Translations under genes and position numbers: made by a program
Shown here: positions 5,301 through 64,000 of the stretch, one piece after another
Layout: every line of letters starts with the position of its first letter
Numbering within the stretch: position 1 is the stretch's first letter
Notes under the pieces: model-generated
Databases searched by the model: none
Seen by the model: the letters and a program-made list of their open reading frames with translations, nothing else
What the model was told of the DNA's origin: nothing
Assembly: GCA_032358255.1 (NCBI GenBank)
Contig: JAULBX010028714.1
Location: 124,001 to 188,000 of the forward strand
Direction: 5' to 3'
DNA: 64,000 nt
Origin: Heterotrichella gracilis
Taxonomy: Eukaryota; Sar; Xanthophyceae; Tribonematales; Xanthonemataceae

Positions 5301-8180
5301 CACCCGCCATGCACTCCATTGGTCACTAGCCGCTAGCCAAGGGCCTGCAATGCAGCAAATTTGCAGGTCACATTTCCAGTGAGTTTATATGGCTCATTGC
5401 TCCAGCTCCAGGACCACGAGCCCCACAGGCACACCTTGATCTCATTGTTGTGATGTTTCAATACGTTATCACCTTGATCGCATTGTCATCATGTTTTGAC
5501 AGTTGATCATCATCATATTCATTGCTGTACGCAATGCCGCAGGTTCCGGTTCTGAGTTCTGGCGGGGGAAGACGCTGATGCTGCAGATGGTGGGCCAGAC
5601 GCTGTCGGTGGAAATGGGCCAGGCGGGGCGCAGCCTCACGCCACGCGAGCTGGGCTCCTGGGCGCCAGAAGTGTATGCACTCGGGGAGGTTTGCGTGGCG
5701 GCTGAGGCTGAACAGGTGAGGCAGTGGAAGGAGGTTGCGCACGACTGTGGATATATGCTACAGGAAGCATCGCGTGGCGACGAACGGTGGATATGTGAGA
5801 GGCTATTGTTTTGGTAGGGTGATGGGCAGCTCGCTGGCCAGCCACACGATTGTGGGCTGTATTGAAGGGGTGTGGTGGGGGTACCGGAGAGGAGGTTTGC
5901 CCAGGGCTTTGAGGAGGCAATGCATTGCGGGTGGTGTGGGAGCTGCAAGGGTGCGGTGGATGCATTCCAGCACTGCAGCCAGGCCAGCATCATGGCTTTC
6001 CCAGCGCTGACATATACTCCTCCCCCTGGTCCTGCCGCAGGTGATCAGCTTGTTCACCAACTGCTTGGTTGGGTCCGGCAACGAGGTGCTGTGCCGCGCG
6101 CACGGCGCCCCTGTCCTGCCCACCCTCGTCGCCTCCACCCCCTCGCCCAACTGCCGGGCCTCCCGCCATGCCACCTCCCTGCGCCTGCCGCCGCGCCTGC
6201 GCCCCGGCGTGCACTTTGTCGAGGTGCAGTGCGGCGAGTACATGTCTGAGGCGCGCGCCTTTCTGGTTGTGGATGACGCGGCGCTGGCGGCGGAGCTCGG
6301 CGGGGTTTGCCCTAAGCTAGGGTCGCAGGAGGCGTCGGAGGGCCTGCTGGCTGATGTGGCGCAGGTGCTTGGGTACAGTGCCAAGGCGGATCTGGGGGCG
6401 CAGCGCCTCAAGGGCACGGCAGCAAAGTACGCACTGACCATAAACCCTAAACCCTATACCTTTGATCCTAAGCCGTCAACCTGAAGGGGCGACGTACATG
6501 CGTGCTGGTACATTTCCACTATCCATTAAAAGCGGACGACTGACATACCAATTGCCAATGTTCTGCCACTTTCTGTTTTTCTGAAAGCCCTAGCATCACA
6601 ATGCTCCGGCCCATGTCACCAGCTTTGCTGCATGCTGTCGCGGGCGCCCACCCTGCCCTGCCCTGGCAGGCTGATGCGCTTGCTGTGGCCAACATCCTTG
6701 CCTCCCTAGCAAGTCGTTGCTGGCTGATCTGGACATTAAGCACAAACCCTGAACCCGCAGGCTGATGCGCTTTGCTGTGGCCAACATCCTTGCCTCCCTC
6801 CCTAGCAAGCCCTTGGTCGTTGATCTGGACCCTAAATCTATAACCCTGAACCTGCAGGCTGATGCACTTTGCCGTGGCCAAGGACCTTGCCTCCCTAGCA
6901 AGCCCTTGGTTGTTGATCTGGACCCTAAAGTGAAAACCCTAACCCTGCAGGCTGATGCGCTTTGCTGTGGCCAACAACCTGCCCTCCCTGGCGGGACACC
7001 TGGTGCCCCAGCTGGCTGATGTGGACCAGGACGCACTGCTTGGGCTGCTGCTGGGAGAGGAGGAGGGGCATGGCCAGGACCAGGGGGGCCAGCTGGTGCT
7101 TCAGAGCATCCTGCTGGGCCACTGGCAGGTGCTGGAGGTGCGCACATGTAGATGGAAGGGGTTTGTCGGATGGAGGGGTGTGGTGGGGCGTTATGTGGCG
7201 TTGTGTGGTGGGGATGGTGGTGCCCCGCTCGCACCTGTTGCAGTGCGCACGTGAGGGTGTTTGTTTTTGGGGTGTGGCGTGCGGCATGTGGGTATGGCCA
7301 GGGTGTGGCGTCTGGGGTGCGTTCAGCTTCTACCGTGTCCGCCCTGTGCGGCAGTGTGTGCTTGCTCGTATCTTTATCCAGACCTTCTTCCACGGGCATG
7401 TCCAGTTCAAGTTGGTACACGGGCCCTGGCATTACAGCCAGGTGGGCTGGCCTTGCGCAGCTTGTGCAGGCACCTGATTTTGTCCACATCCACGCAAGCT
7501 GATGGATCGCGCCCTCCCTGCAGGTCCTTCTACAGCTGCTCACCCTGGCATCCCTCCCCTTTGACGCCTCCCAACCCTCCCCCCTTGGCTGCTCCTACCT
7601 GCACGCGGCGGCGCTGGCTGGCCACCTGGGGTGCGCAGAAGCCCTCCTGGACACCTGCGCCACAGATGCAGCCTGGCTCGTTCCCTGGGAGGAAGCTGGG
7701 GACGGGGTTGGGGACGGGGGCGCCGCCCCCTCGCCAGCGGAGTATGCACGCCTGGCAGGCCATACGCACCTCAACGGTTTGCTGGGGCTCGAGGCAGTCA
7801 GCGGCGCTGCAGGTGGCGGTGTGGAGGGTGGTGCGGCAGTGGTGCCTGAGGGTGCGGCCGCACAGGTTGCGGGGGAGAATGCGACGCGATTTGACGGTGG
7901 CCATGGTGTGGCGGAGCAGTCACATTCTCAGCCTGTGTTAGTGGCCGGCACCAAGGCTGCTTCCATGCCGTTCGCCACTGGCGAAGCCCTGGAGGATGTG
8001 AAGGGTGGGGGCGAGGGCAAGGGTGTGGAGGCGTTGCCCTACGTGTGGGTGGGGGAGAAGCCGGCCGTGGGGGGCCTGTCCACAGCGCGCCAGCTGGCGG
8101 CGCTTGCTGCCGCGCCGCTGGTGGCTGCCCATGTGGTCATGCTGGTCAATTTCCTGATGGAGCGCTGGGCCACGGTGTAG
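2353..8180 (+). CDS. SBP-box transcription factor, long SPL/CRR1-like type with ankyrin-like C-terminus (5' end unresolved)
   Basis: Predicted nuclear DNA-binding protein. Exons I can join in phase: 2353-2636, 3030-3182, 3472-4376, 4753-4913, 5543-5715, 6041-6426, 6951-7137 (or 7128), 7524-8180, about 968 codons. The start exon lies further upstream. An N-terminal acidic/Trp motif (WSAEDWHWDPDRFAAEP) resembles the one in plant SPL1/SPL12. The SBP domain is split by an intron and has both zinc sites: C-x4-C-x16-C-x2-H, then CQQC-x3-H-x11-C, followed by the basic stretch KHNARRRKR, a likely nuclear localisation signal. A Pro/Gly/His-rich linker follows, then the long-SPL core (RISVKLFNCTPADLP, GLIRPGCVHLTAQAL), a segment starting KLMRFAVANNLPSLAGHLV, one clear ankyrin-like repeat (SYLHAAALAGHLGCAEALLD) and a hydrophobic C-terminus. 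This matches the family containing Chlamydomonas CRR1 (copper/hypoxia regulator) and Arabidopsis SPL1/7/12. SBP proteins bind GTAC cores. A copper role is inference. I see no clear Cys-rich tail like that of CRR1. Confidence 0.9.
6667..6985 (+). repeat. Four tandem copies of a 3' splice site plus exon start (exon echoes) in the SPL-like gene
   Basis: The motif CAG|GCTGATGCGCTTTGC recurs with exon-like starts at 6670, 6761, 6858 and the functional one at 6951, a spacing of 91-97 bp. Each copy carries about 35-50 bp of exon-like sequence, then a spacer reading like GTTGATCTGGACCCTAAA and CCCTGAACC before the next CAG. Only the last copy continues into the conserved SPL coding sequence. Confidence 0.9.
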
Positions 8181-9921
8181 GGCGGCCTGAACCCTACGCC
8201 CTGAACCCTAAACCCTAAGGCAGTGGGGCCGAGGGGTGGAGGTTCAGCGGCGAAGGGGAGGGGGAGGAGCATGGTGGCCTTGTGAGGGTACGGGCAGCGC
8301 ACGCTTTTTGGGAAAGCTGCGCGTGGCTCTTGCGCCGTCCCTGCAACGTTGTGAGTTTTTACTGGTTTCTTGTACATTTTTCCCCTTGCTTTTCCCCCCC
8401 TCTATGGTGCAGTTTAACTTATGGCTTCCTGCTCTCAGTACTGCCAGCACTGGTTTAAAGTCTTTCAATCCAACCCTGTGCTTTTTGCTTGGTAGGTGCA
8501 CAACAAAAGGTGTGTACTCATCCAAGTCATGTCTCCATAGCTCGAGGGTGGTGGTGCAATGTTTTGGCTTACCATGTTTTTGTTGCCGTCCCTGCTGCGA
8601 AGTCCTGATGTAGGTACACCCACTTATGGGAGCCTTGCCATGCACGTTGCTTGTGCCATGTCCCAGGCGTTCAGTACTTGCTACAACTATGCTTGAACTT
8701 GGTTTGGGGGGTTGTCGGGGTTGTGTGAAGTAGCGTCCCATCTTATGTGTGACGGGGTCCTTGAAGAGTCTAGGCTGAGGTGGTGGAGTGGTATGCACTG
8801 CTATCAGTTGGCACTGCCGGTTTGGCAAAACAGTCGCAGAAATGCTTGTCTGTGGGTGAGTTTCTCTTAGGCTGGTGTTTAACCACCTTGCTCCTAGTGT
8901 CATTAGCTATGGTAGTGTCCCATGATGTGGTTGGGCCTGGCGCTCGAGTTACTGACTTGCTGTGTTACCACACTTGCTTGCTGCCAACTGCACACTGCAG
9001 TGCCTAGTGGTACCAGTGTACCACCCAAATGAAGCCAACCACACTCGTTCACGTGTGGGCTTCCTCGTGTTTTTTATTTGGGTTGGGGTTTTATTTATAA
9101 TGGAATTGTAGAGGTGGCCTCCTTTGCAGCTGGCACTGGCCTTGTGTTTGGTTTGGAATGGGTGGTTTCCCATGGGTTTTGGGGCAACAGTTAACAAGCA
9201 AGCCCCATGATGCTTTGCCGCAGCAACATCCAACCTTGGGTCGTGGTCTGCGCTTTGAGCCAAGTTACTGTTGGACTTGTATTCAAAGGCAAGGTTTTGT
9301 AACGTTCTTAACCGGCAACTTCACCTATGCCGCCATTAGCTACTAGACTGGAAGGTGAGCTCTCCCCAAGCAAGGGTTTTAACCCCTCTAGGGCGCATGC
9401 CTCTGTACACTTGCCAAAGCCTTGAAAGCACTTGGAGACTGAGGACCGTCTGTAATATGCAGTGGTCTGAGAATCGGCACCTAGGTTTCTGGGCAGTATG
9501 CTGGCGGTATCAAGAGTAGCCACCCGCCAGAACCCCACAGGTGAGATCGCTAATGCATGCATTATGCCTTATACGAGTTGGTAGGTTGAAACAAGCCTGT
9601 AAAAAGAGGTCGTGACAGGCGTTTTCAATCCCTTTGCAACGAGCCCAACACTCCTAACCTGTGAAAAACGAGATTTTATTCCCATTGGGAGTGGCAGTGC
9701 ATGCATTGCATGCACGTTGCACTGCACGAACTTGGCAAGATTGGCCTGATTCTTCTATGGTCACAGCCCCTGCTAGGAGTGTCAGTTGCAATGCATGTCG
9801 TAAACCTAGCCACTGTACGTGTCATTGAAAGTGGTATAACCCTAGCTATTTGCAATGCACATCAAGTGCACTTGTTGTTGCTCGTTATCTAGGTGTTTGA
9901 ACTAGCCACGCACGTGGCATA
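8181..9921. other. Intergenic / probable 3' UTR of the SPL-like gene
   Basis: AT-richer sequence with no supported coding region. It begins with CCCTAAACCCTAA-like sequence at about 8206-8219. Open frames are short and have no recognisable domain. Confidence 0.5.
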
Positions 9922-15201: not shown

Positions 15202-15317
15202 GGCGTGCAGTGTGCCGCTGTGTGTGGGGCGTGCAGTGTGCCGCTGTGTGGCGTGCAGTGTGCCGCTGCGGGGCGCTGCGTGCAGTGTGCCGCTGTGGGG
15301 CGTGCAGTGTGCCGCTG
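15202..15317 (+). repeat. Short tandem repeat, five units
   Basis: Five copies of a 21-25 bp unit built on GCGTGCAGTGTGCCGCTG, with small GTGTG or GGGGC length differences between units. No gene is associated with it. Confidence 0.9.
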
Positions 15318-21236: not shown

Positions 21237-23219
21237 GCACCTGCTGGGTACCCACAAGGACGAGGTCTGCACCAAGTGTGTAAAGTGTGCCAGGACAGCT
21301 CTGCCCCCAGGACTAAAAGCAGAGTTGCACGAAGACCCACCTGCCCGCAAACACGTACAAGATGACGCAGGTCAGTAGCTCGACCTTCTGACCCTCTGAG
21401 GCTACTGCACTGCACCTGTGTGTCATTGGTGTCTGATCGCTTCGCTGCCACGGGGTTCCCAGGGCCCCGCATCTCTGACGCGATTTCAAGCCATTCGAAC
21501 GGCTCCAGTTGCTTGATTGTCGAAGGATGGGCCCGATTTTTGCCGTTTTGCCCATAAAAGTCCCTTTCATATCCACACCTTGCGTTGGTGTGTGCGGTTT
21601 GTTTGGTTTTTCCGGTGCGCAAGCTGCATGCACCCTGCATGCAATTAGTAAACTTCCCCCGAATGGTACCTTCCAGGGCACACCAGGTGGCAGCACGGCT
21701 CCCGCAGCTGCCACGCAGATCCCAGTTTGCGGCCAGAGCCCCGACATCCCCCAATCGGGTCCCACCGACCAGTTGCAACCACCCAGGGAGCTGGTGGCGA
21801 CCCTCGTGGGTGCGCACCTCTTCAGCTCGAGCTGCAGCGTGCAGCTGTGGGGCCAAACCGACCCTCTCCAAGGCCTCCGCCCTGACCAGTGGGCGCCTGG
21901 GTCCCCCTACCTACACCAGTTTGCAACGGCACCACCACCGCCCCCAAGCCCACCCCCCCCACCAGCCAGTCCACCACACCAAGCCTGCCACAGGCCCGCC
22001 CATAGCCCAGCACTTCCCTCACCCACTCGCAACGCCCACCTCCTCCTTGCCCAGTACCCACAGGTTGTTGCTACCACTATGCTGAACCTCGCCGCCAAAG
22101 CCGCAGACGCGAGCGGCCTGAAGAACCACCTGCACTACCTGGCTGTGGTCGCTGAGCTACTGGTGAAGACCCAGGACCCCATGGAAAGGGAGGCGGCGGC
22201 AGCCTTCCTCAACTGCTATGACAGCGAGATTGCGCAGGCGCGCGACCCCAACTATCAGGTGCCCATGCTCAAGGCGCTGCTGGCGCAGGTAGGAACATGC
22301 AATGGAATGACCAGCACTTGAACCTCAGCTCCCTCCCACTCTGTTCCTTGACTTTCCTACTCCGTCCTCTGACGTGCTCATATGTGAGATGAGGTTCGCA
22401 CATCCTGTTTTATTTGATGTGCAGGTACCACCGGTTGAGGGTGCTCCATCCTTCCCGGGCCAGCCACGCTCCCTGGGCGGCGCCTGCCTGACCATCCTCA
22501 AGTGGCTGGAGGTGGGCCGTGCCACCACCAGCCCCGCGGTGCAGCAGGCCTTTGCCAACCTGCTGGCCATGACCATCTCAGAGTACCCACAGGCAGCGCA
22601 GGGCCTAGTCGACCTCAGGGACTTCTTCCCCTTGTGCGACTGGCAGGCGGAGGTGTACCAGCCCCTGGTGGCGCAGGTGCTGGGTGGGGAGCTGCATGCC
22701 AAGTGCGCTGCGGCGGGCGCGCTGGCCGGCTGGATGCACCTGCAGTGGAGGCTGTACCTGAACCTGCCTCAATTGATGGGTTTCGCAGTGGACCAGTTTG
22801 GCTGTGGGCGCGGGCCTTTGGTCAACTGCCTGGTGGCCCAGCTGTGCCTGCACCACGCCAGCCCCGCTGTTCACAACTGCCTGACGCTGCTGGCGGTCAT
22901 CGCCTACTTCCAGTTCCAGCAGCGCTCCGCCAGCACCCACCAGCTGCTCTCCTGCCAGCCGATGTTGCTGCCTGCGCTCTGTGACCTAATGTGCAACGAG
23001 CGCTGCGAGGAAGGGGTGGCGGGGCTGCTGCTGGTGCTGCTGAAGGGAGACACTGAGGGCGCCGGGCCGCGGGTGGTGCTGCGCGCCCCCGCTGGGCAGC
23101 GGCTGTTGTCGATGCTGAAGGACATGTTCCTGAGGACGGGGGATCAGTGTGCCGGGAAGGTGCTGGACCTGGTTGATGCGTACTTGGGCAGAAAAGTGGC
23201 TGGCACTGGGCCTAGTTGA
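21237..23219 (+). CDS. Solenoid-family paralogue B (start unresolved)
   Basis: Exons: a leader-like exon 21237-21370, then 21677-22288 and 22425-23219. The last two join in phase for 468 codons before the stop. The leader-like exon has one open frame (LLGTHKDEVCTKCVKCART) whose phase does not match the next exon, so it is probably untranslated. In the proline-rich exon the first ATG is at 22079. An ATG at 21527 is in frame if the preceding intron is retained. The protein has a Pro-rich linker, then a helical repeat region (HYLAVVAELLVKTQDPME, EREAAAAFLNCYDSE, SPAVQQAFANLLAMTISEYP, AAAGALAGWMHLQW, EEGVAGLLLVLLKGDTEG). It resembles armadillo/HEAT solenoids but I cannot assign a named family. 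It is immediately followed by a minisatellite. Confidence 0.6.
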
Positions 23220-23220
23220 A

Positions 23221-23740
23221 GGCATGTGGGCCTACAGGAAGGGTGTGTGGGTGCAGGTATTGGGCGTAGTTGAAGGGTGCAAGAGTTTGGTGGTGTTGGG
23301 CCTATATGCAGGGTATGTAGATGCAGGAGTTTGCTAGTATTGGACGTATTTAAAGGGCATGCGGGTGCAGGATTTTGCTGATATTGGATCATTTTGAAAG
23401 GGCATGTGGGTGCAGGAGTTTGCTGTATTTGGACCTGTTTGAAGGGAGTGTGGATGCATGAGTTTGCTCTTATTGGACGTATTTTGAAGGGCTGTGGGTG
23501 CAGGATTTTGCTGTTATTGGACGTATTTTGAAGGGAATGTGGATGCAGGAGTTTGCTCTTATTGGACGTATTTTGAAGGGCTGTGGGTGCAGGATTTTGC
23601 TGATATTGGACCACTTTAAAGGGTATGAGGGTGCTGGAGTTTGCTGGTATTGGGCCTATTTGAAGGGTAATCGAGTACAGGAGTTTTCTGGGTTGAGCCA
23701 ATCTGAAGGGTGTGTGGGTACAGAAGTTGCTGCCGGGTGC
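23221..23740 (+). repeat. Minisatellite abutting the paralogue B stop codon
   Basis: About twelve diverged tandem units of roughly 43-46 bp, each built like GGTGCAGGATTTTGCTGATA then TTGGACGTATTTTGAAGGG. The array begins within a few bases of the stop codon at 23219. Confidence 0.85.
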
Positions 23741-29203: not shown

Positions 29204-32200
29204 CAGCTACAACGACAGCTACAACGACTATGGCTACTATGCATCCGACTCAGACTTTGACTACGCATACGAGGAACCCAGCTACTACCCCCCCGCCCCT
29301 AGCCACCCCTGCCCAACCTGCGGCAAGACCTTTGCACAAGAGCACAGCCTGCGCCAGCATGTGCGGGACGCTCATGGGCAGGTCAAGTGCACATCATGCG
29401 AGCGGGTCTGCAACACAGTAGTGTCCCTGCTCCAGCACAGGTGTGGTACACATGTTGTAACCTGGACTGGTACTTTTGCAGTGATGCATGCTTCACCCAC
29501 AAGGTGCTCCCCACCACACATTCATGGTGGAAGTATAGGGTTTAGGGTTTTGAGCGTGAGCACAGCCTGTGCCAGCATGTGCGGGACGCGCATGGGCACG
29601 TCATGTGCAAACCATGCGAGCGGGTCTGCAACACAACAGCGTCGCTGCTCCAGCAGAGGTGTAGTGCACAGCTTTGCCTATAATTACATAGTTGCATTAA
29701 GAAAGGGCCTGTGCCCCTGCCACCCATTCCCGCTTGTCCACCGCCTCACCACACACACCTGCCTCACCGCCCACCACTCACCACCCTCTATCCACCTTCC
29801 TCCCTAACCCACCTACCGCCCATCCACACCCACCACCACCCTGCCTCCCCACCCGCCATATGGATGCATCCCGCCATATAAATGCATACATCGCCATATG
29901 GATGCATCCACCATTTTCCCCCCTCCCTCCCACCTGTCCACCCCCCACCCTGACGCCCTCTCCCCCCCTCTTCCCATTCCCCAGGAGGGACAGGCACGGG
30001 TGCCCATGCTGCCTGTCATGCGTGCTCGAGTTCAACTCCGAACTCGAGCTCGAGTCCCACGACCGCCAGGTGCACGGCTACCTCCCCGAGCAAGAGGACG
30101 AGGAGTACCACCCCTGCCCAAGCTGCGAGAGGAGCTTTGCGCAGTGGTCCTCCCTGCGCCAACACGCGTGGGACGCGCACAGCCTGGCCATGTGCAGCGC
30201 GTGCCCGCGGATGTGCGGCTCCTACAAGGCGCTGCTGCAGCACAGGCGGGACGCGCACGGCTGCCACTGCTGCCTGTCATGCCAGGTAGGGGAGGGGAAC
30301 AAAGGGGCGGGAGCGATGAAGGAAGGAAGAACATATTCACAGGTGACACCAGGTGACAGCTGGTCAGGCACCTAAAACGTGTGGGTCTAGAGTGTAGCAG
30401 AATGCGTAGTACATGTCACAGTGGGCATGGTAACAATTTGGCTACAATAAAATGACACGATGTGTAATTAATCTACATATTTTTGTATGTTTTCAAATGA
30501 AATTTTCCTGGCCTCAAGGTTGAGTTTGACACCGCGGGCATGCTGAACGCCCACCAAGGCAGCCAGCACGGCCAGATCGAGCAAGAGGTGTACAGCGAAT
30601 CCGACGAATACGATGAAGAGGGAGGGTATATGGCCTATGAGGACGGGGGCGATGGGGATGACGCATCCAGCTACGTGACCGAGGAGGGGTGTGAGGTGGT
30701 GGGGCTGGATTGCGAGTTTGTGGGGGTGGCGCCCACCCGGGAAGACAAACAGAGGGGCGCCAGGCCAAACACTGCGATGGACTTCCCGGCGCATGTGGCG
30801 GTGGTCAGCGCCTCAGGTGGGGCTGAAACCCTACACCCTGCACCTGTGAACCCTACAGTGGTGGCGGTGTGGCGCATGTGGCGGTGGTCAGCGCCTCAGG
30901 TGGGATTGAAACCCTACACCCTGCACCTGTGAACCCTACAGTGGTGGCGGTGTGGCGCAGGTGGCGGTGGTCAGCGCCTCAGGTGGGGCTGGCTCAGAAA
31001 CCCTACACCCTGCACCTGTAAACCCCTGAAGATGGCGTTGCGCTTTCCCTGCGCATGTGGCGATGCAGGTGGTCACTCGCAATTGCTGTTTCTTCTGTAG
31101 TAAAATTGGATTCGGAACTGGTGTCAAATCGCCATAGTAATCTCAGTGACAGTTGTATAGTGTGCATGCAATGTAGGTAATGCATTTGTCTTACACCCCA
31201 TATTTCCACCCTGTTTGCTGCAGGTCGTGTGCTGTATGAGGAGTTTTGCTGCCCCACGGCCCGGGTGGTCCAGTGGCGCACGTGGGTGACAGGCTTCAGG
31301 CGCAACGATGAGAGGGTGATGGGGGGCCTGGCACTAGAGGATGTGAGGTGCGTGGCATTTGAGATGGTGTGTGCATGGGTAAGGAGGGTTTTTTGGACGT
31401 GGGGATTTGAACTGCTGGGAGACTGGGATTGCATATTTGAACTGCTAGGAGACAGGGATTGCAGAACTTGTTAGTATTGATATTGTTGACTGCGTGATGC
31501 GTGGGATGCCTGTAAGGGACTGTGGGTGTCTGCATGTGGTGCATCCATGGGGCTGCGAGCAGCGGAGGGACCTAGACCCTTAAACCCTAAACCTGGACCC
31601 TAAACCCTTGCTGGACAGCAAGATGGCATTTGGTGGCTCCGTGGGCAATGAACAAAGATTCAACACCTCAAAACCCTGAACCCGGCAACTGTGAACCATA
31701 ACCACTTGCTGCCTTCCCAGGAGGGAAGTGGAGCTGCTGCTGGCTGGCATTCTGTGGTGGGCAATTCAGTGGGCGGTGATCAAAGCCCCAGTTCCCCAAA
31801 AGAACCCTAATCAACCCATCCCTGTGCTTATTCCAGGAGGGAGGTGGCATGGCTGCTGGACGGGAAGTCGGTGGTGACCGATACCCTAATTTCCAAAAGG
31901 AACTTTAATTACCCCATCCCTGTGCTGTCTCTCAGGAGGAGGTGTGGTGACTGCTGGACAGGAAGATGCTGGTGGACCCTCTGCAGGACCCAACCCAATC
32001 CCTAGATCCTAAACCCCTGAAACCCTAACCAGCCTGCCCCTCTGCTGTGTTTTCAGGAGGGAGGTGGCATGGCTGCTGGACCCAAACCCTAAAACCCTGA
32101 CCCTTGAACCCTAATGACCCCATCCCTGTGCTGTCTCTCAGGAGGGAGGTGGCATGGTTGCTGGATGGGAAGGTGGTGGTTGGCCACTCTGTTGAGAGCG

Positions 32201-32785
32201 ACCTACGGGCGCTGGGGCTGGAAGAGTACCCAGTTGGGGTGGTGGACATTGCACAATGGGAGGTGTACCAACGGGTGAGCACGAGGGGAGGAGGTGAAGG
32301 GGAGGGGGCGTGGATTAGAGGGGGGGGGCATGGATGGGGTGGGTGCTAGTGTGAGAAGGGGTGGGTATGGACTAGCGGGGGTGACATGCAGGTACTGGGG
32401 CTGGAGTGCTGGCCATGGGGGTGGTGGGCACCTTGCATTGGTAGCTGCACAGCTGGGTGGGTGCATGGGAAGTATATACCGGTGGTCGGGGTGGATTGCA
32501 AATGGTTTATACATTAACACACCTGATGCAAACAAAACATGTGTGCCCCCCACCATGCCACATCTGATCCCATTCAATCCCCGCGCGACCCCCGTCCAAT
32601 CCCATGTATGCGTGACCCCATCCCCTCCCCTCTCCCCGCAGCTTGACGGCAGCCGCATCAGCCTGCGTGACCTGGCAGCCGACCACCTGGGCAAGTACAT
32701 CCAGGAGGGCACGCACGATCCTGTGGAGGATGCAGCCACTGCCATGGAGCTGTTCAGGCTGCACCAGCACTCTGACTGGCGCTGA
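29204..32785 (+). CDS. C2H2-type zinc-finger protein fused to a DEDDh 3'-5' exonuclease domain (REXO4/ISG20-like)
   Basis: Exons in phase: 29204-29440, 29985-30285, 30519-30816, 31224-31347, 32142-32274, 32642-32785, about 411 residues, with the start exon not found. An acidic Tyr-rich segment comes first, then six zinc fingers spanning exon joints (CPTCGKTFAQEHSLRQHVRDAH, CTSCERVC...H, CPCCLSC...H, CPSCERSF...H, CSACPRMC...H, CCLSCQVEF...H). The nuclease domain has Exo I (GLDCEFVGV), the conserved VLYEEFCCPT segment, Exo II (VVGHSVESDLRAL) and Exo III (HDPVEDAA, His-x4-Asp). All DEDDh catalytic positions are therefore present. REXO4/ISG20 relatives trim structured RNA, for example in rRNA processing. 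The fingers suggest double-stranded nucleic acid binding, by inference. Three of its introns hold exon echoes. Confidence 0.85.
29551..29661 (+). repeat. Echo of zinc-finger exon 1 inside its own intron
   Basis: About 105 bp duplicates the end of exon 29204-29440, including the GT donor region. It still encodes EHSLCQHVRDAHGHVMCKPC in frame. The final finger His is changed to Gln (LLQQR). It is preceded directly by TAGGGTTTAGGGTTTTGAG, a telomere-like run. Confidence 0.9.
30790..31030 (+). repeat. Three tandem 5' splice sites (exon-end echoes) in exonuclease intron 3
   Basis: The exon end GTGGTCAGCGCCTCAG|GTGGG occurs at the functional junction (ending 30816) and again at about 30899 and 30982, with a period of 82-83 bp. 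Each unit carries AAACCCTACACCCTGCACCT and a GTGAACCCTACAG spacer. Confidence 0.92.
31590..32175 (+). repeat. Tandem 3' splice-site/exon-start echoes in exonuclease intron 4
   Basis: CAG|GAGGGAGGTGGCATGG-like starts occur at 31721, 31837, 31936, 32057 and at the functional exon start 32142. A weaker fragment (TTGCTGGACAGCAAGATGG) lies near 31,599. Spacers read AACCCTAA...CCCCATCCCTGTGCT and CCTAAACCCCTGAAACCC. The units are unequal in length and diverged. Confidence 0.9.
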
Positions 32786-44516: not shown

Positions 44517-47143
44517 TCAACCTGTCCCCAGGTTCTCCCTAAGGTAGTCCACAAACATGCGCTTGGCGGTGGCGGCGTCTTGTATCCGGGAAAACGTGAT
44601 CTGGGTCGCCAGCTTCATAAATGCGCGCTTGTGCCTTCGGACCTCGGCCACATTGAGGGGCACCCGCAGGTCCAAATCTGGGATTTCACCGCCAAAATGC
44701 ACCACCCCCGGGGCCCCGCCCCCCGCGTTGGCCTGGGCTTCGGTGATGGCTGCGATGACCTGGCGGCGGGGAAAGCCCTAGGTTAGGGTATGTGTATGTC
44801 GGGGTGGGTGGGGAGCGTGCATGGTTCTACCGGGATGCAGTGGTGGCGGTGTGGTAATGGTGCATGCGATTATTAGGAAGGTACAGCAATGGCAGCGGCC
44901 ACTTGGTACTGTCCCGATTCTCAATCCATTTGTTATGAACCCTGCCATTCTATGGCAATGGTGTGGGGACGTGCATAAAAGCACAAATCGTGAAGTGAAC
45001 CCAAACCAGGATTGTTGCTCAAAACTTCATTAATGCCACGCGCATGCCTGCAACTAGATAGGTATCTAGTACCCTCAAACCCTTATCCCTGCTCCACCCA
45101 TCCATACCACAAACCCACCTCCTGCGTCGCGCGGTCAATCTCATACTGCAGGTTGGTGGTCGCAAGGGTTGCGTTGGTGGTGGCACAGGTGGGGGTGAGT
45201 TCCCTCCCCACACCCCCGGGCTGCACCTGGCTTACCCCCTTGGAGGTCACCGCCTGCACCACCTAGGGAATAGTCAGTGAATTAGTGGATTAATTGAAAT
45301 TAGTATATCTATTAGCTCTGGTAGCTCACACCAGCGCCAGCCTTGCACAATCAGTACCAAGCAGTCACATCCTGGCGCCCCTGCCCGATTATGCAATTGA
45401 AATGGCAACCAATGCCACAGGCGTGCATACGGCGGCATAGCAATTAACCCAAACGCCAGTGGAGGAAATCATCTCGCAGACGGGTGCAAGGCAATCCCAG
45501 CCGCGTGTTGCGCGGGATCAATTAGCAAGTTGAGTTCCCGCAGGAAAAATGGAGGGGGAAAAAACCCAGCTGCCATCTGCTCCGCCCAAGCTATTGCCTT
45601 ACGTCTCTGTGAAGAGCTTACCTGTTGCAATACATCGCTGGTATCCTCCCTGCCCGGGTGGGCGGTGAAGAGGGGGGCATCCCAGCGCTGGCGGGAATCG
45701 GGGCGCTCATACCTGCAGGCAAAACCCTAGGTTAGGCATACAGAAGCCCTGGAGTAGGGTGCATGAAGATGACAGACTAAAGTGCATCCCATCGCTGGCG
45801 GGTGTTGGGGCGCTCATGTCTACACACAGATGCGCAGAATACCCTAATTAGGGTGCACAGAAATCCTAGAGTAGATGCACCCGTATCCAGCAGAGTACGG
45901 AATCATGCAAGCATCCGCCAGAGCTACAAAAAAGGTAATCAATGCAATTGCTTATATTTTTTGTTAAGCCACACAGAGGGTCTTGCCTGTGCCTCAAGCC
46001 TTCGCCAGCGATGGATGCACAATGCACTGCACCTCCCACGCGAAACCCTGCCCCCACCCCACACACACCCACCCCCCACACACAGACACCCACCTGCACG
46101 CCAGGTCCTCAAACACCTCCGAGCTGTACCCCCCCTCCCCCCTCCCCTGGTTCCACCCCCGCGCCACCTCCACCCCCACATCCACGTGCAGCACGCAGTA
46201 CTTGGTGGCCAGGGCGCGCGCGATGCACCACACCTCGTAGCGGTACCCCTTGATGCCGTTCAGGGAGTCGAAGAGGACGGTGCGGTTGCGGGAAAGGGCT
46301 CGATCCAGGGCGGCCTTGAGGGCGCCGCGCGTGTTCTTCTCGCTGGCAGCATCTGCGGCGCCGTGGGGTGTTGGTGGGAGGAAATCCAGCAGCCTTTTTC
46401 AGGCGTAGGATCTAAGGTTCAGGGTGTAAGGTATAGGGCGTAGGATCTAGGGTCCAGGACGCCGCACGTTTTTTTCTCCCCTGGCAGCGCTGTGGGGTTG
46501 GGTTGGGTTTGCCTGTCCCGGAGGGTTTAGGGTTTAGCGTCTAGGGTTTATATTTAGGGTTGCGGCACAGGCAGGGCGCGGTGGCCCCAAGAAAGCGCTC
46601 AGTGAATCGACGAGGGTGATGTGGTAGCAGGAAAGCGTGCTGTCTAGGGCGGCCAGTTGGGTGACTGTGGATGCGTGCGTGGGCGCTTGGGTGCTGGGCG
46701 GGAGCCATGCCTCATATGGCGACACCGCTCTAAGTATATGTAACGTGTATACGTATTTTGTAAAAAATCGTACACAAGTTAATAGTAGATGCCCCTGCAA
46801 TTCTCGTGCATCACCCGGTGGAAATGCTTGTGGATGTTGGAAGCATGCGTGGTTGGCACATGCATGCACAAGCAAGCTGAATGCAAAGTATATTTTATAC
46901 CACTTTAGACCTAGCTCGCATAGCTAGACATCATAAACATGTGCAAGACAAGTGACACAACGGCAAAACATCCACCATTGCCGCCGCTGCAGCACCTTTG
47001 TACGCCGCATTGCGGTCGAGGTTGCAGGACGGCTCGTCCACCACCACCACCTCCTCACCGCCACCCCTTAGCAGCGCCGCCAGCTCCGCCACCAGGGTCG
47101 ACTTGCCGCTGCAGGGGTGCCCGGTTATGACCACCAGCGGCAT
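44517..47143 (-). CDS. KTI12: KTI12 / DRL1-like Elongator-associated P-loop protein
   Basis: Complete. Minus-strand exons 47143-46996, 46352-46094, 45712-45622, 45262-45119 and 44759-44517 join in phase to 294 residues, the usual family length. The start MPLVVITGHPCSGKST carries the Walker A P-loop at residues 8-15. VVVVDEPSCNLDRN follows, then the family block FDSLNGIKGYRYEVWCIARA, the C-terminal motif YERPDSRQRWDAPLF, LQYEIDRATQE, and the end PLNVAEVRRHKRAFMKLATQ. In yeast and plants KTI12/DRL1 works with Elongator, which modifies wobble uridines in tRNA. KTI12 is a tRNA-dependent ATPase found in cytosol and nucleus. Exon 2 to exon 3 splicing is bordered by an exon echo at 45,783-45,823. 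The third exon acceptor choice follows the plant sequence. Confidence 0.93.
45783..45823 (-). repeat. Echo of the KTI12 exon 3 start in intron 2
   Basis: On the minus strand, ATGAGCGCCCCAACACCCGC and the bases after it repeat the exon 3 start at 45712. The copy is separated from the exon by about 70 bp containing AACCTAGGGTTTTGCC-like sequence. Confidence 0.85.
46500..46562 (+). repeat. Telomere-like motifs in KTI12 intron 1
   Basis: Several TTTAGGG-like units (GGGTTTAGGGTTTAGCGTC, ATTTAGGGTT) lie in the first intron. Confidence 0.7.
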
Positions 47144-56387: not shown

Positions 56388-59300
56388 TCAGCTCATGGCC
56401 AGCGGAGGCCGCTGCGAGCTCCCCCCCACCGACCCCGCTCGCTGCGCACCCCCTGCCTTCTCAATGTTATAGAGGGCGATGATGGAGTCCCCGCCCCCCG
56501 CCGCCAGGGTGAGGAGGTGGGGGTGGAAGGCTGCGGTGGTGATTGGCCCCATGCGGCTGGACAGGAGCTGCGGGTGGGTGCGGATGGTGGACAGCTCGTT
56601 GCCGCGGGAGCCCTCGTGGAAGGTCCACAGCTTGACGGTCTGCGCAAGGGTGAGCGGGGAGGTTTTCGGTGGGGCTTTCGACAAGGGTTGGGGGGTGCGC
56701 TTTGGTGTTGATATGAAAGGCAGCGGCGGGTGGTGGTGATGCAGAAATGCTAGAGGCATTGGGTGCGTATGGTGGACAGCTCACGCCCCTCACTCCACCT
56801 ATTCCATGCCCTGTGCCACCCACCTGTTTCACCGTAGGCCCCACACCCCCACACCTCCACCACCCCCCACACCTCCCCACCCCCACCCACCCACCACACC
56901 CACCTGGTTGACAGTGGCGGTGGCAAACAGGGGCGCGTGCGGGTGCGCCAGCAGCACCTTCAACCCCCCCTTCTGGTGCGCCTGCACCTGGCGCACGCAC
57001 TGCACCGACCCCACCCCCTCCCCCATCATGCGCACATCCAGGTAGGAGATGGCGCCCCCAGCCACCCCAGTCACTGCGATGTTGCGGTACGCGCCCGAGC
57101 CCAGGGCCAGCCCTACCAGGCGCTCCTTGTGGGCTTGCTGCAGGGGGTGGGGGAGTGGTGGGTAAGGGGAGGGCAGTGATGATGCAGTGGGATGATGGTA
57201 TGGCCCACACGGCGCAGCCAGTACCCTCATCACCACCCTAGGCGCACCAGCCTCCCTCCTAGAACAGTCTGCATCTTACCGCCAATGGCTCAGCATATTG
57301 CTCTGGCCAACACCCCAGCAAAACCCTCACACCAACTGTGGTAAACCCTAGCTCAAACCCTAGTCCAAACCCTGCACGCACCAGGCTTCCCGCCTCCTTG
57401 CCAGAGCAGCGCAAGTCAAACAGCTTCACCGCCCCGTCGCTGCATGCCACCAGCATCAAAGGCTCCTCTGATGCAAGCGCGATGTGGTCCACGCCGGGGG
57501 GGCCGCCTCCCCGGGATGAAGATGTGGCGGGGACGCCGCCTGCGAGTGAGGGGAAAAGGTGGAGACTGTTTTTGTCACAGCTTCGTTTTAATTACAAGGT
57601 CTGCTCTACAAGATGGAACCAGCAACTTGTCCTGGTGAACGTCTAGTAATTGACCGTCCTCACACTCACTCAGCTCCCACACACACACATACCACCCCAT
57701 ACACCACACGCACATCCACAACAGCCACCACCCCCTTTCCCACCAACACCCCACAGCCACCCACCGCTGTTCCCGTTGCTTGACCCTTGCACCACCACCT
57801 GGTCTGCGCACTTCTCCTGGTGCAGGTCCCACAGGTGAACCACGTGGGGTGCGGCACCGCCCGCCGCAAACAGGGTGCCAAGGGGGCCGGAGTAGTTGAA
57901 CACCGAGGGGCGGAGGGGGGAGAGGCCGGTGGGGGGGGCAATGGGCACCGCCTGCCAGGCGGTCGCCAGGCGCTGCGCACCCTGCGATAGGGTTTGGGGT
58001 GTTTTGGTCAGACTTTGGGCAGATGGAAGGGTTAAGATAGGTTTAGGCACCTGCATCAGGATTTGGTGGGGTCTGGCATGGGTTTGGGTTTGGGTTTGGC
58101 TGCACGGACTAGGAATTCAAATGAACAAGTCTCGGCAAGGAGGGCTTGGCGCCGCATATAACAACCGTCCAATTATGGTAGTGTAAACACATGCATTGCT
58201 TAATTTTGCCTGTCTTGCTGATGCATGTAATTACGGTGATTGGAAGCAGCTGTGTTCTGTTAGGCTCTGTGCTTTCCCACATGCTCTGGGAACCCCCTCC
58301 ACTGCCACCAATGCCACACTACTAAGGGTTTAGGGTTTGCATTCCCCACCTGTTTGGCAAACCCCCTCCACAGCCGCACCCCGCCGTCCGCCGAGCAGGC
58401 CATGAGCAGGGGGCAGTACAGCTCGTTGATGAGGTAGGAGGAAACGATGGTCACCGGTGGGCCCTCGTGACGCCGCTCCGAGGTCACCGACTCACCGCTT
58501 GCCACGTGGAAGCGGTTCTGGACAGGCACACGCACACACCAGGCTGATTTCCTTGTCTTTAATACCGTATTATGGTAGCTCATTTGCAGCAAACAGGGTT
58601 CATCATCATCTATTATCACATGCAGTACTGCCATGATGAATGATGGCAGGTGCTGACTGACCCTCCGCTGGCAGCATGAAAAGGAAACCATCCACCATGC
58701 CCTAAACCCTACACCAGGGTCCCCTCACACCCACCTGCATAATGGGGGGTGCGGTAGTTGAGCGCGCGCACCAAACCCTACCCAAAACCCCCGACAAAGC
58801 AGCCACTACCACAAGGAAACCCTACCAGACACTACAAACGGCTTACAAAGGGCCTCTCCCCCAAAACCTTAGAAAATACCCCATTCCGGAGCTCCCTTTT
58901 CCACCCACCTGCACCCCACTAACCTGCATGGTGGAGGCGCGGTAGTTGAGCGTGCGCACCACCCCCCGCACATCGATGGCGGTCACCAGGGGGGAGTATG
59001 CGTGCAGGAGGATGGAGGAGGTGGCGGGCGCCTCGGTTTCAAATGTGACGACATGCTCCGATAGGCGGGCGGTGTGGCCCGCCTGCCAGCACCGGTCAAT
59101 GGCCTCCTCCCTCTGCGGAAGCAAGGGGGAAAAGGCGATCAGGCCAATTAATATACAGGACAGGAAGGAATACTGCTATGCAAGTGGTGATGTGGCAATC
59201 CGCCACGCGGGCGATGCACACAGCACACGACACCCCCTCTTCCCAAACCTTGGCCAGATCATCATGCTGCATGCACCTGGGGCGCCCCACAGGTACCCAA

Positions 59301-62300
59301 GTCAGCATACCCCTCCACCCCCCAAAAGTAAACGGCACACACACACCACGACACCCACCATCCCCGCCCCAACACCCGCACCTCCTTCACCATGCTTGCC
59401 ACCTTGCCCAGGTCATGCTGCATGCACCAGGGTCCCTGGGACGCCGCGCACGTGTCCACTTCAGCGCGCCATGAGGATGCCTGGGGCTCCAGCAGGGGCC
59501 TTGAGAAGTACTCACACGACATCTTATAGATGTGGGAGGGGGGCAGGGGGGGGCGGGAGGCCGGGGGGGCGTCGGAGGGGGCGGGGGAGGGGGGACGCAT
59601 GGGGTGGGGGCGTGGCTGCAGGGGAGGTGATGGGTGTGGGTGTGCTATGGCTTTAGAAACACGCAAATGCCATTACTAATATCTTTACAAGCCAGGTCAA
59701 TTGGGTTTACAGGGTGTTGTTGCCCTTATCACCTGGTCAAGGTTAGGGTGCATGAATAGGGTGTCATGTTTAGGGTTTTTTGGGTTTCGTTGGCCTTACC
59801 GCCTGGTCCATGTGCTCGTCATGTGACCCAACCGAAGCACCCGAGGCTGAGCGACGCATTGTGGGGCGCAGGGGGGGCGTGTCCAACTGGTACAAGGAGG
59901 AAGGAGGAGGGTCAGTGACTGAGAAGGGAGGAGTGAGGAGCAGTAGACAAGCAACGATGATGTCTTTCTTTTCCAGGAACTCCAACCACGTATGTTCTTT
60001 TAGCAAATTGATGGATGTCTGGGAACAGGATTAATACACTAGCTGCATCTGCACAGTATTCAGATATCTTCAGTTGCATGATCCCAACCTGTCTTTTCCT
60101 AACTCTTGTTGCCACCTTACTACATCCATCCATGCATACTCCTCAACTCCAATTACCAGCACCACCACCACACCACCATCACCACCACCACCGCTGCCGC
60201 CACCACCACCACACCACCACTATCATCACCACCCCCACCCCCACCCCCACCCACCTTCCGCAGCACAAATGAGGCGCGGGTGCACCACTGCTGGGCGGGC
60301 GCCCCACTGCCAGGGGGGGAAACACTGGGGCTGTTTCCCGCTGAGGAGGGGAGGGAACGTGCCAGGTGGCGCAGGCTGAAGGCGCTCTTGCCTGACTTGG
60401 CGGATTGGAGGGAGGAGAGGGGAACGGGGTGGGGGAGGGAGGGGGTGGAGGTGGAGGTGGAAGGGGCAGACCCTGGAGGGGCGGGGGAGAGGGGGTGTCA
60501 TTGCGGCGGCAGTGGCGGGAACAGAATATGGTACACTTGAATTGCCAAAAAAAAAGAAAAAGTGGTATAACGAAAATGAAATGCATGGATAGAGCGTCAC
60601 AACTGGGTAAATCTTCGTCACATACGGCAGTTAGACAGTGAACATAATGATGGAAAGAACATAGCCAAATAGTAAACACCCCATGTGCGTCCCCCCTCTC
60701 CCCCCCCCCAGCCCCTCCCCCCCCGGTCACCTGGCGCAGGCGGCTGCACCCCCCCCCTGGCCTCCACAGCCACCAGCTCCACCCCCACCAGCCGCAGCGC
60801 CCCCCTTCCCAGCCCCGCCACCCGCTGGGAGGGGTCCGTAGACAGCATGCAAAGCGCATCCAGAACGTGGCTGTACAGCCCACCCCCCACCCGTGCAGCG
60901 TCAGCGGATGCGAAAAGCGCCCCCCCTGCATCGGAGGTTGTCTGGAGTCCTAGGTTGATGAGCGCTTCGAATCCCCCCCTTGCAGGGGAGGCGCGCACGC
61001 CGGGTGAGGAGGGGGAGTAGGAGGAGGGGGAGGAGGCCTGGGGGGCGGTGGCGGCGGCGCCTGCGGGTGGGTGTGGGTGTGAAGGGGAGCGAGGGAGTGG
61101 GGACTGGGGTGCTAGGTGTGTACCAGGATGTGCAACCACACATTCCCCTCTCTGCAGGAATGCGTCACGCTACTAGGGGACTTGACGCAACCCCAAACCC
61201 TTGCCGAGGGTTCACACGCGCAGCAGGATCCACAAGAAAACGCACACATACAGCCCCCCACCCCCACCAACACTACACCCCGCACATTTCACAGGTTCGC
61301 ACTCACACCAATAAATCCTTGCCTAGGCTTAGAAAACACATGCACCCCTTGCCCTTTCCACAGGAATTGCATCACTCACCGTTCGCCGGTCCCCCCACTG
61401 AGTGTGCAAAGCTTGGCTTGGTCCCCGCCATCGCTACACCCACGCTCCCCCCCACCACCACCGACGCCTCTGCTGGTGCTGATCGTGCCATGCCCCCCTC
61501 GCCGCCACCCCGCACGCGCTCCACCCGCCGCGCATACCCAGACACCGCATCCTATAAGGAGATCACGTCAGCGAGCTGTAATGTGCAATCAAATGCAATG
61601 GAGGAAGCTACCCTTGAGCTTCACTGTTTAGAACATAGAGGGAGGAATTTCATGTGGTGTACAGGATCAATGCAAAGCATAACTTGAAACTTTAAGGCAC
61701 TAAAAATTATAGCAGCACTGGATCTTTTTCCATCATCGGTTGAATTACATACCTTGCTTCTTTTTGTACCTGGGGTGTATAAACAATCAAAACTAAAAGA
61801 AATTAATTTAAATTACATACTTCCTTAATTATTTCCTCCTTTTCTCTTACCTGCAGCAGCAGCTGGTGGCCGGCAGCCAGCCGCGCCAGCGCCACCGCCA
61901 CCTCCCCGCGCACCAAAGGGGACGCGTCATACACCGCCTGCAGCAGGTGGCAGGCAACCATCCGCTCCCCCGCCAGCCGATCCCCGGAGGGCGGCTGGGG
62001 GATGCGGGAGGGGGGGGAGGCGTCCGCAGCCAGGGGGCGGGGGGGTGAAGGGGAGGCGGAGGCGTCCCCGTCCCGTGAGGAGGGGGGGGAGGAGGGGTCT
62101 GGCTCGTAGGCTTGGATGAGGCAGCCTAGGGCGAAGACCGCTGCCGCGCGCACCTCTGGGTTGCTGTTTTGGAGCAGGCGGGCAAGGATCTCCGGCGCTT
62201 CTTCTCGGAAGGCGGAGGCGGCCACCTGTGGGGGATGGGGAGGTGGGTGGGTGGTGGACGTTGCGTGTGGGTGTGAGGGGAGTCATAATAGGAAGGTACG

Positions 62301-63946
62301 AAAATCATAATCTTGAAACCTGAACCACGGTCTGTTCAGGGTGGCTATATGTGCGGCCATGTGCAGCGGCGGCATGGCTTTCAATCCATTTCTGCATCCG
62401 CGCCGATAAAATTCAGAAACCACCCTGCATGGCACGCTAAGCAAACTAATACCACAATAACTGTCACACAGTGATTTCTCCTCCTCTTTGGAAACGGGCA
62501 CCACCACAGCTTGTTTCCATTCATTGACTACTACCACCTCTGAATAGGAATAAGCGTGGGAGTCCTGTTTTAAAATATGGAGGACAAATCAATGTGTGAC
62601 AATTATCGCAGCATTAGTTTGTTCTGCGTGCCATGTAGATTTTTTTTGACATCACACGTAATCCCTTCCCCTTGTCCCACTTCCCCATCTCCACAATCAC
62701 ACCAACACCCCCTAGCCTATCCACCTTTACTAAAAACGCACCCTCATTATCCACAACAAGGATCCTCACACTTCCCCCTCTGCCACCGCGACCTCCCCCT
62801 CACTCTGGCACGTTGTCACACACCTTGCCCAGGCACAGCAGCAGCCACTGCACCATCGCCCACTCCCACCACCACCACCACCACCATCCCCTCACCTCCG
62901 CCACGTTCTCGCACACCTTGCCCATGCAGCACCCAAAAGTCCTAAACCCTAAACCCCTCACCTCAGGCACATTCTCGCACATTTGACCAGCAGAAAGGAA
63001 CCACTGCACCATCGTCCATCTCCTGACACCACCACTACTTTCCACCACCACCATCCCCGCACCTCGGGCACGTTCCCGCACACCTTTCCCACGCGCAGCA
63101 GCAGCCCTAAACCCTAAACCCCTCACCTCGGGCACGTTCTCCCACATCTTCCCCACGCACTGAGCAGCCACGCATCACCACCAACACCACCACACCACCA
63201 CTACCACAACCACCGCCTCCTCCTCCACCCCCACCACCCTCCCACCCGCACCTCTGGCACGTTCTCGCACATCTTGCCCACACACAGCAGCAGCCATTTG
63301 ACCAGCAGAAACGAACCCCCAGCCGCTGCTGCAGCCGTGGCCCCCGGCAAATGGCTGAGGCATGCGGGCAGCAGCTGGGCGGCCGCGCACAGGGTCTGGC
63401 CCCGGGGGTGCCCGTCGCAGATGACTGCCAGTATGAAGGCCGCCTGTGCTCGCGACTCGGGCGTGACTGAGGGGTCGGGCGAGTCGAGGCACTTGAGGAA
63501 GTAGATGTGGCCGCTGTCCTTGACCAGGTCAACCTGCGAGAATCAAGTTAAAGTTGGACCAAATTTGAATCAAAATTTGAATGAGCATTGGGTCAACAAT
63601 CGTGACCGAAGTGGGGAGAGTTGGCAGCAGTGGTCTGGTGCAGTGAGCACATGAACGCTGCCAATACGCTACCAATCCCCTACCAATCCCCTTGCAAATC
63701 ACCCAGGAAGCAGCCCTGCATCTTCCCATCCACCACCCCCACCTGGCACGTCTTGTCCAGCGCCAGTATCTTGGTCCAAATGAACACCAGCGTGTGGCGC
63801 AGGTCTGCGGCAGTGGTCTGCAGCAACTTGAGCACGTAGGGGAAGATGCCCACGCTCAGCGCCAGATCCACTGCCCATGACCCAAGGTCCAGAAAGCGAC
63901 CCAAAAGGACCAGGGCGCGCAGTCGATGCACCTGGCTCAGAAGCAC
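56388..63946 (-). CDS. RPTOR: Raptor (RPTOR), TORC1 scaffold subunit, 3' part; continues beyond the window
   Basis: Minus-strand exons 63946-63743, 63533-63252, 62225-61851, 61551-61380, 61060-60731, 60472-60255, 59886-59800, 59615-59382, 59112-58924, 58517-58350, 57981-57765, 57539-57382, 57137-56904 and 56639-56388 join in phase to 1039 residues plus stop. The N-terminal caspase-like RNC domain lies outside the window. HEAT repeats come first, with the hallmark [56 protein letters not shown] and [21 protein letters not shown] long low-complexity linker follows, then [13 protein letters not shown], then about seven WD40 repeats ([36 protein letters not shown]), ending [20 protein letters not shown] and [11 protein letters not shown]. 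Raptor binds TOR and recruits TOS-motif substrates in nutrient signalling. Several introns contain echoes of the flanking exon, and one holds reverse-transcriptase fragments. Confidence 0.93.
56758..56790 (-). repeat. Echo of the last Raptor exon in the last intron
   Basis: On the plus strand, GTGCGTATGGTGGACAGCTC repeats, with one mismatch, GTGCGGATGGTGGACAGCTC inside the final exon at about 56,578-56,597. Confidence 0.8.
58270..58310 (-). repeat. Weak echo of a Raptor WD40 exon end
   Basis: GGGAACCCCCTCCACTGCCA resembles GGCAAACCCCCTCCACAGCC at the donor end of exon 58517-58350. A TTTAGGGTTTGC run lies between them. Confidence 0.55.
58734..58785 (-). repeat. Echo of Raptor exon 59112-58924 end
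   Basis: CACCTGCATAATGG...GGTAGTTGAGCGCGCGCACC repeats the donor and exon end at 58,922-58,962 (CTGCATGGTGG...GGTAGTTGAGCGTGCGCACC) and runs straight into AAACCCTACCC. Confidence 0.9.
59235..59300 (-). repeat. Echo of Raptor exon 59615-59382 end
   Basis: CTTGGCCAGATCATCATGCT then GCATGCACCTGGGGCGCC resembles the exon text at about 59,400-59,445 (CTTGCCCAGGTCATGCTGCA, TGCACCAGGGTCCC). Confidence 0.75.
59712..59811 (-). repeat. Duplicate of Raptor exon 59886-59800 end and donor
   Basis: GTTGTTGCCCTTATCACCTG at about 59,722-59,741 repeats TTCGTTGGCCTTACCGCCTG at the functional donor. TTAGGGTGCATGAATAGGGT and GTTTAGGGTTTTTT lie between. Confidence 0.75.
62390..62650. mobile_element. Inverted pair of non-LTR reverse-transcriptase fragments in a Raptor intron
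   Basis: On the minus strand, at about 62,530-62,390, a frame reads [16 protein letters not shown] then [19 protein letters not shown]. This is the block that precedes the catalytic motif in LINE reverse transcriptases (usual form: PIPKKGD..CDNYRGISLL). On the plus strand, at 62,577-62,645, a second fragment reads [20 protein letters not shown]. The two point away from each other with about 45 bp between. Neither has the catalytic Asp motif, so both are dead remnants. Confidence 0.8.
62796..63275 (-). repeat. Six copies of a 5' splice site plus exon end in a Raptor intron
   Basis: The motif CACCTCGGGCACGTTCTCGC, which is exon end plus donor on the minus strand, occurs at the functional site (63,250) and, diverged, near 63,124, 63,059, 62,962, 62,894 and 62,803. 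Several copies keep the following TTGCCCACACACAGCAGCAG. One keeps TTTGACCAGCAGAAA. TAAACCCTAAACCCCTCACC separates two pairs. Confidence 0.9.
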
Positions 63947-64000
63947 CTGCAAAGGGGTTTTCCAGGGTTTGTAGCGGTCTTTTTCGTGTTGGTGGGTGTC

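Follow-up and report, generated by a model that had tools for sequence, protein, structure and literature searches.

In the genome of the alga Heterotrichella gracilis, about one intron in nine in the sampled parts contains a degenerated duplicate of an adjacent exon edge, and these copies, here referred to as echoes, are probably scars of double-strand-break repair in which an overhang was duplicated and the gap often filled with telomeric sequence. The window, i.e. the whole stretch of 64,000 nucleotides analysed here, corresponds to positions 124001-188000 of contig C618 within an assembly of 68.5 Mb in 903 contigs. A preliminary description of the window had claimed such echoes at ten or more junctions in at least four genes, affecting 5' as well as 3' splice sites and reaching six copies, partly beyond the stop codon, often with telomere-like spacers.

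The presence of exon-edge echoes is confirmed by a scan of introns against their flanking exons with shuffled controls, performed at sampled loci (310 predicted introns with 620 flanking exon edges, 323.8 kb in total). Introns shorter than 60 bp and inter-exon gaps of at least 1200 bp were left out of this comparison, and loci L001-L008, chosen for their telomere motif, are excluded from every count. At a score of at least 22, same-orientation intronic copies were found for 47 of the 620 edges versus 1 in antisense orientation and 2.4 with shuffled pairing, which exceeds chance, and at a score of at least 25 this amounted to 39 edges versus 0 antisense and 0.8 re-paired, 28 of the 39 copies extending to 3 nt or less from the exon boundary. 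Strict echoes (at most 13 nt from the edge, score of at least 22) comprise 38 edges in 35 of the 310 introns. Of these, the window contributes 10 of 92 edges, its flanks (L009 and L010) 9 of 70, and 24 other 10-kb places 19 of 458 (229 introns), the positions of these places having been chosen unseen on contigs from the match list of a telomere search. Hence, echoes are not limited to the window, and their rate differs among places (chi-square per degree of freedom of 2.04). Local direct repeats in general, 25-800 bp apart and with a score of at least 20, were counted 98 times in 263.8 kb after masking of telomere-like motifs, compared to 2.0 after local shuffling, and four equal-width bins at larger distances contained 10, 8, 3 and 3 of them. 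As exon and echo copies differ by about 15%, at all codon positions, the echoes are unlike assembly duplicates.

All gene models are predictions of a splice-aware coding predictor, which was written in Python for this analysis and trained partly on the same sequence, including the SBP-domain and REXO4-like genes of the window. The predictor recovers the inner exon borders of these two hand-spliced genes, both members of the training set, and it also inserts small false exons, some of them within echoes. Therefore, predicted exons below 45 bp were ignored. Some echoes of the RAPTOR-like gene are read as additional exons as well. In the gene models, exons and introns have median lengths of 165.5 and 292 bp, respectively, and Pfam confirms SBP, KTI12, Raptor_N, DNA methylase, HEAT and C2H2 domains. 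The genes present resemble those of a green alga. For an ORMDL protein encoded at 50.9 kb, the best named relatives among the best 120 of 226 matches are from the trebouxiophytes Coccomyxa, Micractinium, Parachlorella and Myrmecia, with 61-74% identity, which points to a trebouxiophyte-like alga and no closer.

Within the window, 13 of 92 edges possess a copy at a score of at least 22, in 10 cases no more than 13 nt away from the edge. They belong to the SBP-domain, C2H2/REXO4-like, KTI12-like and RAPTOR-like genes and to a weaker model at 10.6 kb, and include 5' and 3' splice sites alike, so that the number of junctions and genes given initially is upheld. The respective features are as follows:

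2353-8180, plus strand: SBP-domain gene with nine exons in one open spliced frame; predicted, 5' end provisional (Pfam PF03110, E = 1.2e-30)
6666-6989, plus strand: four copies of a 3' splice site and exon start of the SBP-domain gene, unit of about 93 bp, CCCTAAA/CCCTGAA spacers
8186-8219, plus strand: telomere-like cluster immediately after the stop codon of the SBP-domain gene (TAG, 8178-8180)
23159-23732, plus strand: minisatellite with a unit of about 44 bp, which starts inside the last part of a coding sequence and continues beyond its stop
29204-32785, plus strand: C2H2 zinc finger and REXO4/ISG20-like exonuclease gene with six exons in one open spliced frame; predicted, 5' end provisional
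29558-29670, plus strand: copy of an exon end and 5' splice site of the REXO4-like gene (29340-29452), 88% identical
30788-31025, plus strand: about three copies of an exon end and 5' splice site of the REXO4-like gene, 83-bp unit, CCCTACACCCTG spacers
31707-32191, plus strand: five copies of a 3' splice site and exon start of the REXO4-like gene, used exon start at 32142
32986-33085, plus strand: copy of the last exon end and stop region of the REXO4-like gene (32713-32802), 71% identical, beyond the stop codon
44522-47108, minus strand: KTI12-like gene (PF08433, E = 2.7e-60)
56388-64000, minus strand: RAPTOR-like gene, HEAT part; its Raptor_N domain lies in L010
58728-58958, minus strand: 5'-edge echo of the RAPTOR-like gene, 58728-58770 being a copy of 58917-58958 with a telomere-like cluster in between
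59247-59465, minus strand: 5'-edge echo of the RAPTOR-like gene, 69%, span free of the telomere-like motif
62803-63291, minus strand: six copies of an exon end and 5' splice site of the RAPTOR-like gene, used exon 63246-63533; copies counted by eye

In the SBP-domain gene, which we take to be CRR1-like, the exon parts of the array begin at about 6670, 6761 and 6858, followed by the used copy at 6951. The REXO4-like gene was assigned as an exonuclease on the basis of an ISG20 alignment, and a search with its protein gave 5 distant matches. Its first echo is preceded by a telomere-like cluster at 29533-29552, the used junction of the approximately threefold array lies after 30816, and telomere-like clusters are located at 31803, 32006 and 32081 within the fivefold array. 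Echoes past a stop codon, as proposed before, are represented by the copy at 32986-33085 and by the minisatellite from 23159 onwards, the unit of which resembles the stop-codon region. Two introns of the KTI12-like gene are concerned: 45713-46093 with an edge echo of score 26, and 46353-46995 with an echo of score 30 that lies 37 nt off the edge, together with a telomere-like cluster at 46521-46562. The RAPTOR-like gene, which presumably also comprises a WD part, harbours the largest array, where the reported copy number of six was found again by eye and CCCTAAA clusters occupy 62940-62957 and 63103-63122. In the alignment of the spliced RAPTOR-like protein with Arabidopsis RAPTOR1, a gap of two residues near the six-copy junction is far below the length of one copy, and the alignment of the exonuclease with ISG20 has no gap at the five-copy junction. 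In both genes, homology thus fits the use of a single copy in the predicted protein.

The flanking loci L009 (C618 114001-124000) and L010 (1-5000) contain the Raptor_N-encoding part of the RAPTOR-like gene as well as a DNA-methyltransferase-like gene. Here, 17 local-repeat groups were found in 19.8 kb, several times the average. An overlapping direct-repeat tract at L010 1631-3001, inside the RAPTOR-like gene, shows 63% identity over about 1.2 kb at an offset of about 200; it was excluded from the comparison of exon and intron parts given below. Apart from this, related long open frames are present in the window at 12.1-13.9 and 21.5-23.2 kb and, on the minus strand, at 34.6-36.3 and 41.3-42.6 kb, which by eye share variants of a SPAVQQAFANLLAMT-like stretch.

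The telomere repeat of the genome is very probably CCCTAAA, since (CCCTAAA)8, found in 11 contigs, is oriented as at a chromosome end in every match; in 6 of the 11 contigs it lies at most 200 bp from the contig start, and the other 5 are reverse-strand matches judged by orientation only. A 21-base CCCTAAA query gave 834 genome matches (428 + 406) versus 0 for the reversed control, and three CCCTGAA units gave 16. As in interstitial telomeric insertions, the motif accompanying the echoes is hence very probably the genome's own telomere repeat. The echoes themselves have the form of repair-type tandem duplications, that is, two local direct copies with a short non-duplicated filler. Of 34 edge echoes, 31 align properly; their copies measure 37-184 bp (median 86), typically 53 bp of exon plus 30 bp of intron (medians), and the filler has a median length of 20 bp. 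A telomere-like motif was found in 10 of 34 spacers, with 3 misaligned rows (negative exon part) retained in this count, in comparison to 1.8 (s.d. 1.4) at matched places in echo-free introns, so that the claimed telomere-like spacers hold up against this control. Telomere-like clusters reach a density of 2.38 per kb in edge-echo introns versus 0.57 per kb in others. At least one cluster is present somewhere in 28 of the 34 echo introns, a count made without a control, and some motifs lie inside the duplicated unit.

The association is also seen when starting from the telomere-like clusters. Flanking direct repeats with a score of at least 20 were detected at 35 of 117 clusters of at least 14 bp, compared with 4.6 at random noncoding positions and 0 inverted repeats, which amounts to a direct target duplication at some insertions. 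Among 40 repeat-flanked clusters at a score of at least 18, 10 are separated from either copy by no more than 5 bp, for example L026 3258-3279, L024 457-483, L009 7280-7310 and window 6829-6852, where the copies align over 72-81 bp. Likewise, 29 of 61 local-repeat groups contain a telomere-like cluster versus 19.3 expected. The window alone holds 46 clusters (30 + 16), compared to 7, 15 and 19 in three shuffles. None of 57 clusters of at least 20 bp is located in a predicted exon (17.6 expected), and 46 fall in introns (25.2 expected). An attraction of telomere motifs to splice sites as such was considered and found unsupported, 28 clusters of at least 20 bp lying within 60 bp of a splice site versus 22.7 (s.d. 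3.5), and their orientation relative to genes follows no rule (24:22).

These observations can be combined in a repair scheme, which we regard as the probable origin of the echoes. A staggered break, or a pair of closely spaced nicks, would be filled in on both sides and then joined, leaving the overhang of about 40-180 bp as two direct copies with a short filler in between. The filler would often be telomeric in this alga, supplied by telomerase or by captured telomeric DNA, and duplication and filling may have occurred in one step, as one combined event. Since splicing can retain one copy, duplications spanning a junction would survive: splicing to the outermost site would remove one copy together with the filler and leave the mRNA unchanged, thus ignoring the echo. 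The spliced-out copy would then drift into an echo with a spare splice site, wholly exonic copies would break the reading frame and be lost, and some units may later have been re-amplified into arrays. As likeliest enzymes, we propose the end fill-in machinery common to telomeres (CST-polymerase alpha-primase), because it would connect the duplication to telomere chemistry. A polarity as expected for telomerase extension from a broken 3' end was not seen (20 of 39), for which reason captured telomeric DNA appears as likely as telomerase; the result is weakly informative since many clusters abut both copies. This missing polarity, the 24 of 34 spacers without a telomere-like motif, the small number of young pairs and an exon-edge bias that is not reproduced by the simulations described below count against the repair scheme. 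Nevertheless, among the origins put forward in the preliminary description, break repair with telomere-type patching is the best supported one, in view of the spacer motifs, the repeat-flanked clusters and the cluster density.

That description had suggested, as the other option, replication slippage at CCCTAAA tracts, which together with unequal exchange would give minisatellites incidentally including exon edges. While the arrays of three to six copies with a telomere-like motif in units of 93, 83 and 98 bp are in line with this idea, most edge echoes consist of two copies and one spacer without a tract on both sides, and the motif is missing from most spacers even though most echo introns hold a cluster somewhere. 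A tract at every unit boundary, as slippage would leave, is found in some arrays only. Slippage as the origin is therefore improbable and limited to array growth at most, so that the earlier interpretation is supported in its repair part and falls back, for slippage, to a possible later amplification. Birth of the introns themselves by tandem genomic duplication, or by introner-type insertion, would agree with echoes that are intronic and contain splice sites, and at a score of at least 18 an exon copy at the opposite intron end occurs in 6 of 71 matches; at a score of at least 22, however, it occurs in 1 of 47. Here, 43 of 47 echoes lie in the intron half adjoining their own edge (25 of 29 on the donor side and 18 of 18 on the acceptor side), and by eye the fillers contain no obvious common element beyond the telomeric motif. 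Intron birth is thus the least credible of the explanations considered, and the pattern is indeed distinct from the classical tandem-duplication route, as had been suggested. Finally, echoes could be retained as decoy or alternative splice sites. Among 28 edge-exact echoes with a score of at least 20, GT is kept in 12 of 15 donors and AG in 11 of 13 acceptors, and 9 of the 15 donors and 8 of the 13 acceptors (17 of 28) have scores exceeding the 95th percentile of the remaining intronic GT or AG sites. Yet, by our estimate, a drift of 15% would leave about 20 of 28 intact, the echoes show no coding constraint, and the spacing is a multiple of three in 7 of 38 cases, which makes retention by selection very improbable. 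The anticipated cryptic splice sites accordingly exist as in silico candidates, the use of which is a prediction; they are plausible cryptic sites and nothing more.

Exon-echo mismatches amount to 12.6, 13.7 and 19.2% at codon positions 1, 2 and 3, respectively (38 echoes). As mismatches are found at all codon positions, the echo drifts everywhere with the exon being largely held. Less than 5% divergence is seen in 3 of 38 echoes, a small share that would suit a process with its peak in the past; in view of so few young pairs, duplication may have slowed, or ages may be misjudged. The inter-copy distance equals 2 modulo 3 in 22 of 38 edge echoes (about 13 expected), which may be due to chance.

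The most serious competitor of the repair scheme in its simple form concerns the place of birth of the duplications. They might arise preferentially in or at exons, e.g. by transcription- or splicing-linked breaks, by an estimated factor of about 3 to 7 over noncoding DNA, with a repair chemistry that may be the same; we regard this as possible, albeit doubtful. Both copies are exonic in 1 of 54 genic pairs versus 6.1 expected, a near absence that agrees with purging by frame damage, as duplicated exon DNA breaks the reading frame. Simulated duplication in the present introns, with subsequent drift and protected exon copies, gave 35-50% intronic pairs in six settings (46-50% in three earlier ones), compared to 7 of 53 non-exonic genic pairs seen. 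The 46 edge-touching pairs (31 junction and 15 mixed) against 7 intronic ones likewise differ from simulated ratios of about 1 to 1.9. With two looser exon filters, 38-39 strict edge echoes compare with 10-15 pairs lying entirely in noncoding DNA, of which about 239 kb were covered, and at a score of at least 25 there are 33 edge echoes against 5 introns with an internal pair only (13 with any internal pair). By hand count, 16 of 20 usable pairs include a longer exon than intron part, where simulations give about half; this comparison, in which some intron parts are shortened by telomere masking, omits overlapping copies and pairs whose two copies both lie in predicted exons. GC content was rejected as a driver, being 0.631 at edges with echoes and 0.646 without, and differential decay alone proved insufficient in the simulations. 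On the other hand, the case for exon-targeted birth depends on assumed decay rates, a sample of modest size and a home-made predictor, part of whose training set came from the sequence analysed and which may be biased towards calling exons in duplicated coding sequence. The strictest exon filter, which also drops short true exons, yields 24 edge versus 31 noncoding cases, placing complete pairs at random into the gene bodies as they are today leaves a mild junction excess (31 versus 23.1 expected, with 7 intronic pairs versus 13.0), and pairs of at least 84% identity show a weak one (10 of 20 versus 6.2). In these tests, an exon-edge preference of several fold persists after purging and decay. 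Because random placement with purging and decay fails to reproduce the bias, some further factor favours exon edges.

Several related systems have been described. In rice, tandem duplications make up about 70% of events below about 125 bp, a share that drops to 5% by 200 bp, and are attributed to the repair of adjacent nicks (PMC7971508, which refers to Vaughn & Bennetzen 2014 and Schiml 2016); these patch-type duplications resemble the echoes in being direct and short, as a rule not exceeding about 125-200 bp, but are described as perfect tandem copies, whereas spacers are common and often telomeric in the alga, with a preference for exon edges. In mouse and human cells, CST-guided polymerase alpha-primase fills 3' overhangs and thereby generates small tandem duplications (PMC8355091), which is alike in that overhang fill-in by a telomere fill-in complex duplicates sequence, and different in that telomeric filler is not mentioned in the parts covered of that paper on mouse and human cells. 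Repair-mediated duplications in human and other vertebrates comprise local copies of up to 619 bp with filler (PMC2671141), with 4 partial exon/intron donors among 824, while edges dominate in the alga. Interstitial telomeric insertions at breaks in the horse come with direct target duplication at a few loci (PMC7215372), compared to flanking direct repeats at 35 of 117 clusters, aligned over 23-125 bp, in the alga. Intron gain in Drosophila (PMC3296678) and interstitial telomeric repeats of Chlamydomonas linked to end fusion (PMC6549138) have been treated as well, and the accessible part of PMC12636532 contains nothing on exon-edge duplications with telomeric filler. Repair duplications and interstitial telomere insertions are thus known singly, and no paper combining them at splice junctions this often (35 of 310 introns) was found in a literature search that mostly did not extend to subscription papers. 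While the general kind of event is already known, the coupling of splice-junction duplication to telomeric filler, together with the exon-edge preference, is what sets the present case apart.

A more far-reaching reading, which we consider rather unlikely, is that telomere-style repair, i.e. telomerase and end fill-in, itself prefers breaks at exon edges in this lineage, and that introns grow by edge copies with live decoy sites; if true, much of intron growth and many new splice sites would come about by this major route. If the repair scheme is right, splicing would absorb repair scars throughout this genome, telomere sequence would be coupled to local duplication, and the genome would hold a datable supply of cryptic splice sites. 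As the exon-edge bias is measurable, a steering of breaks by transcription or splicing becomes directly testable in one small genome.
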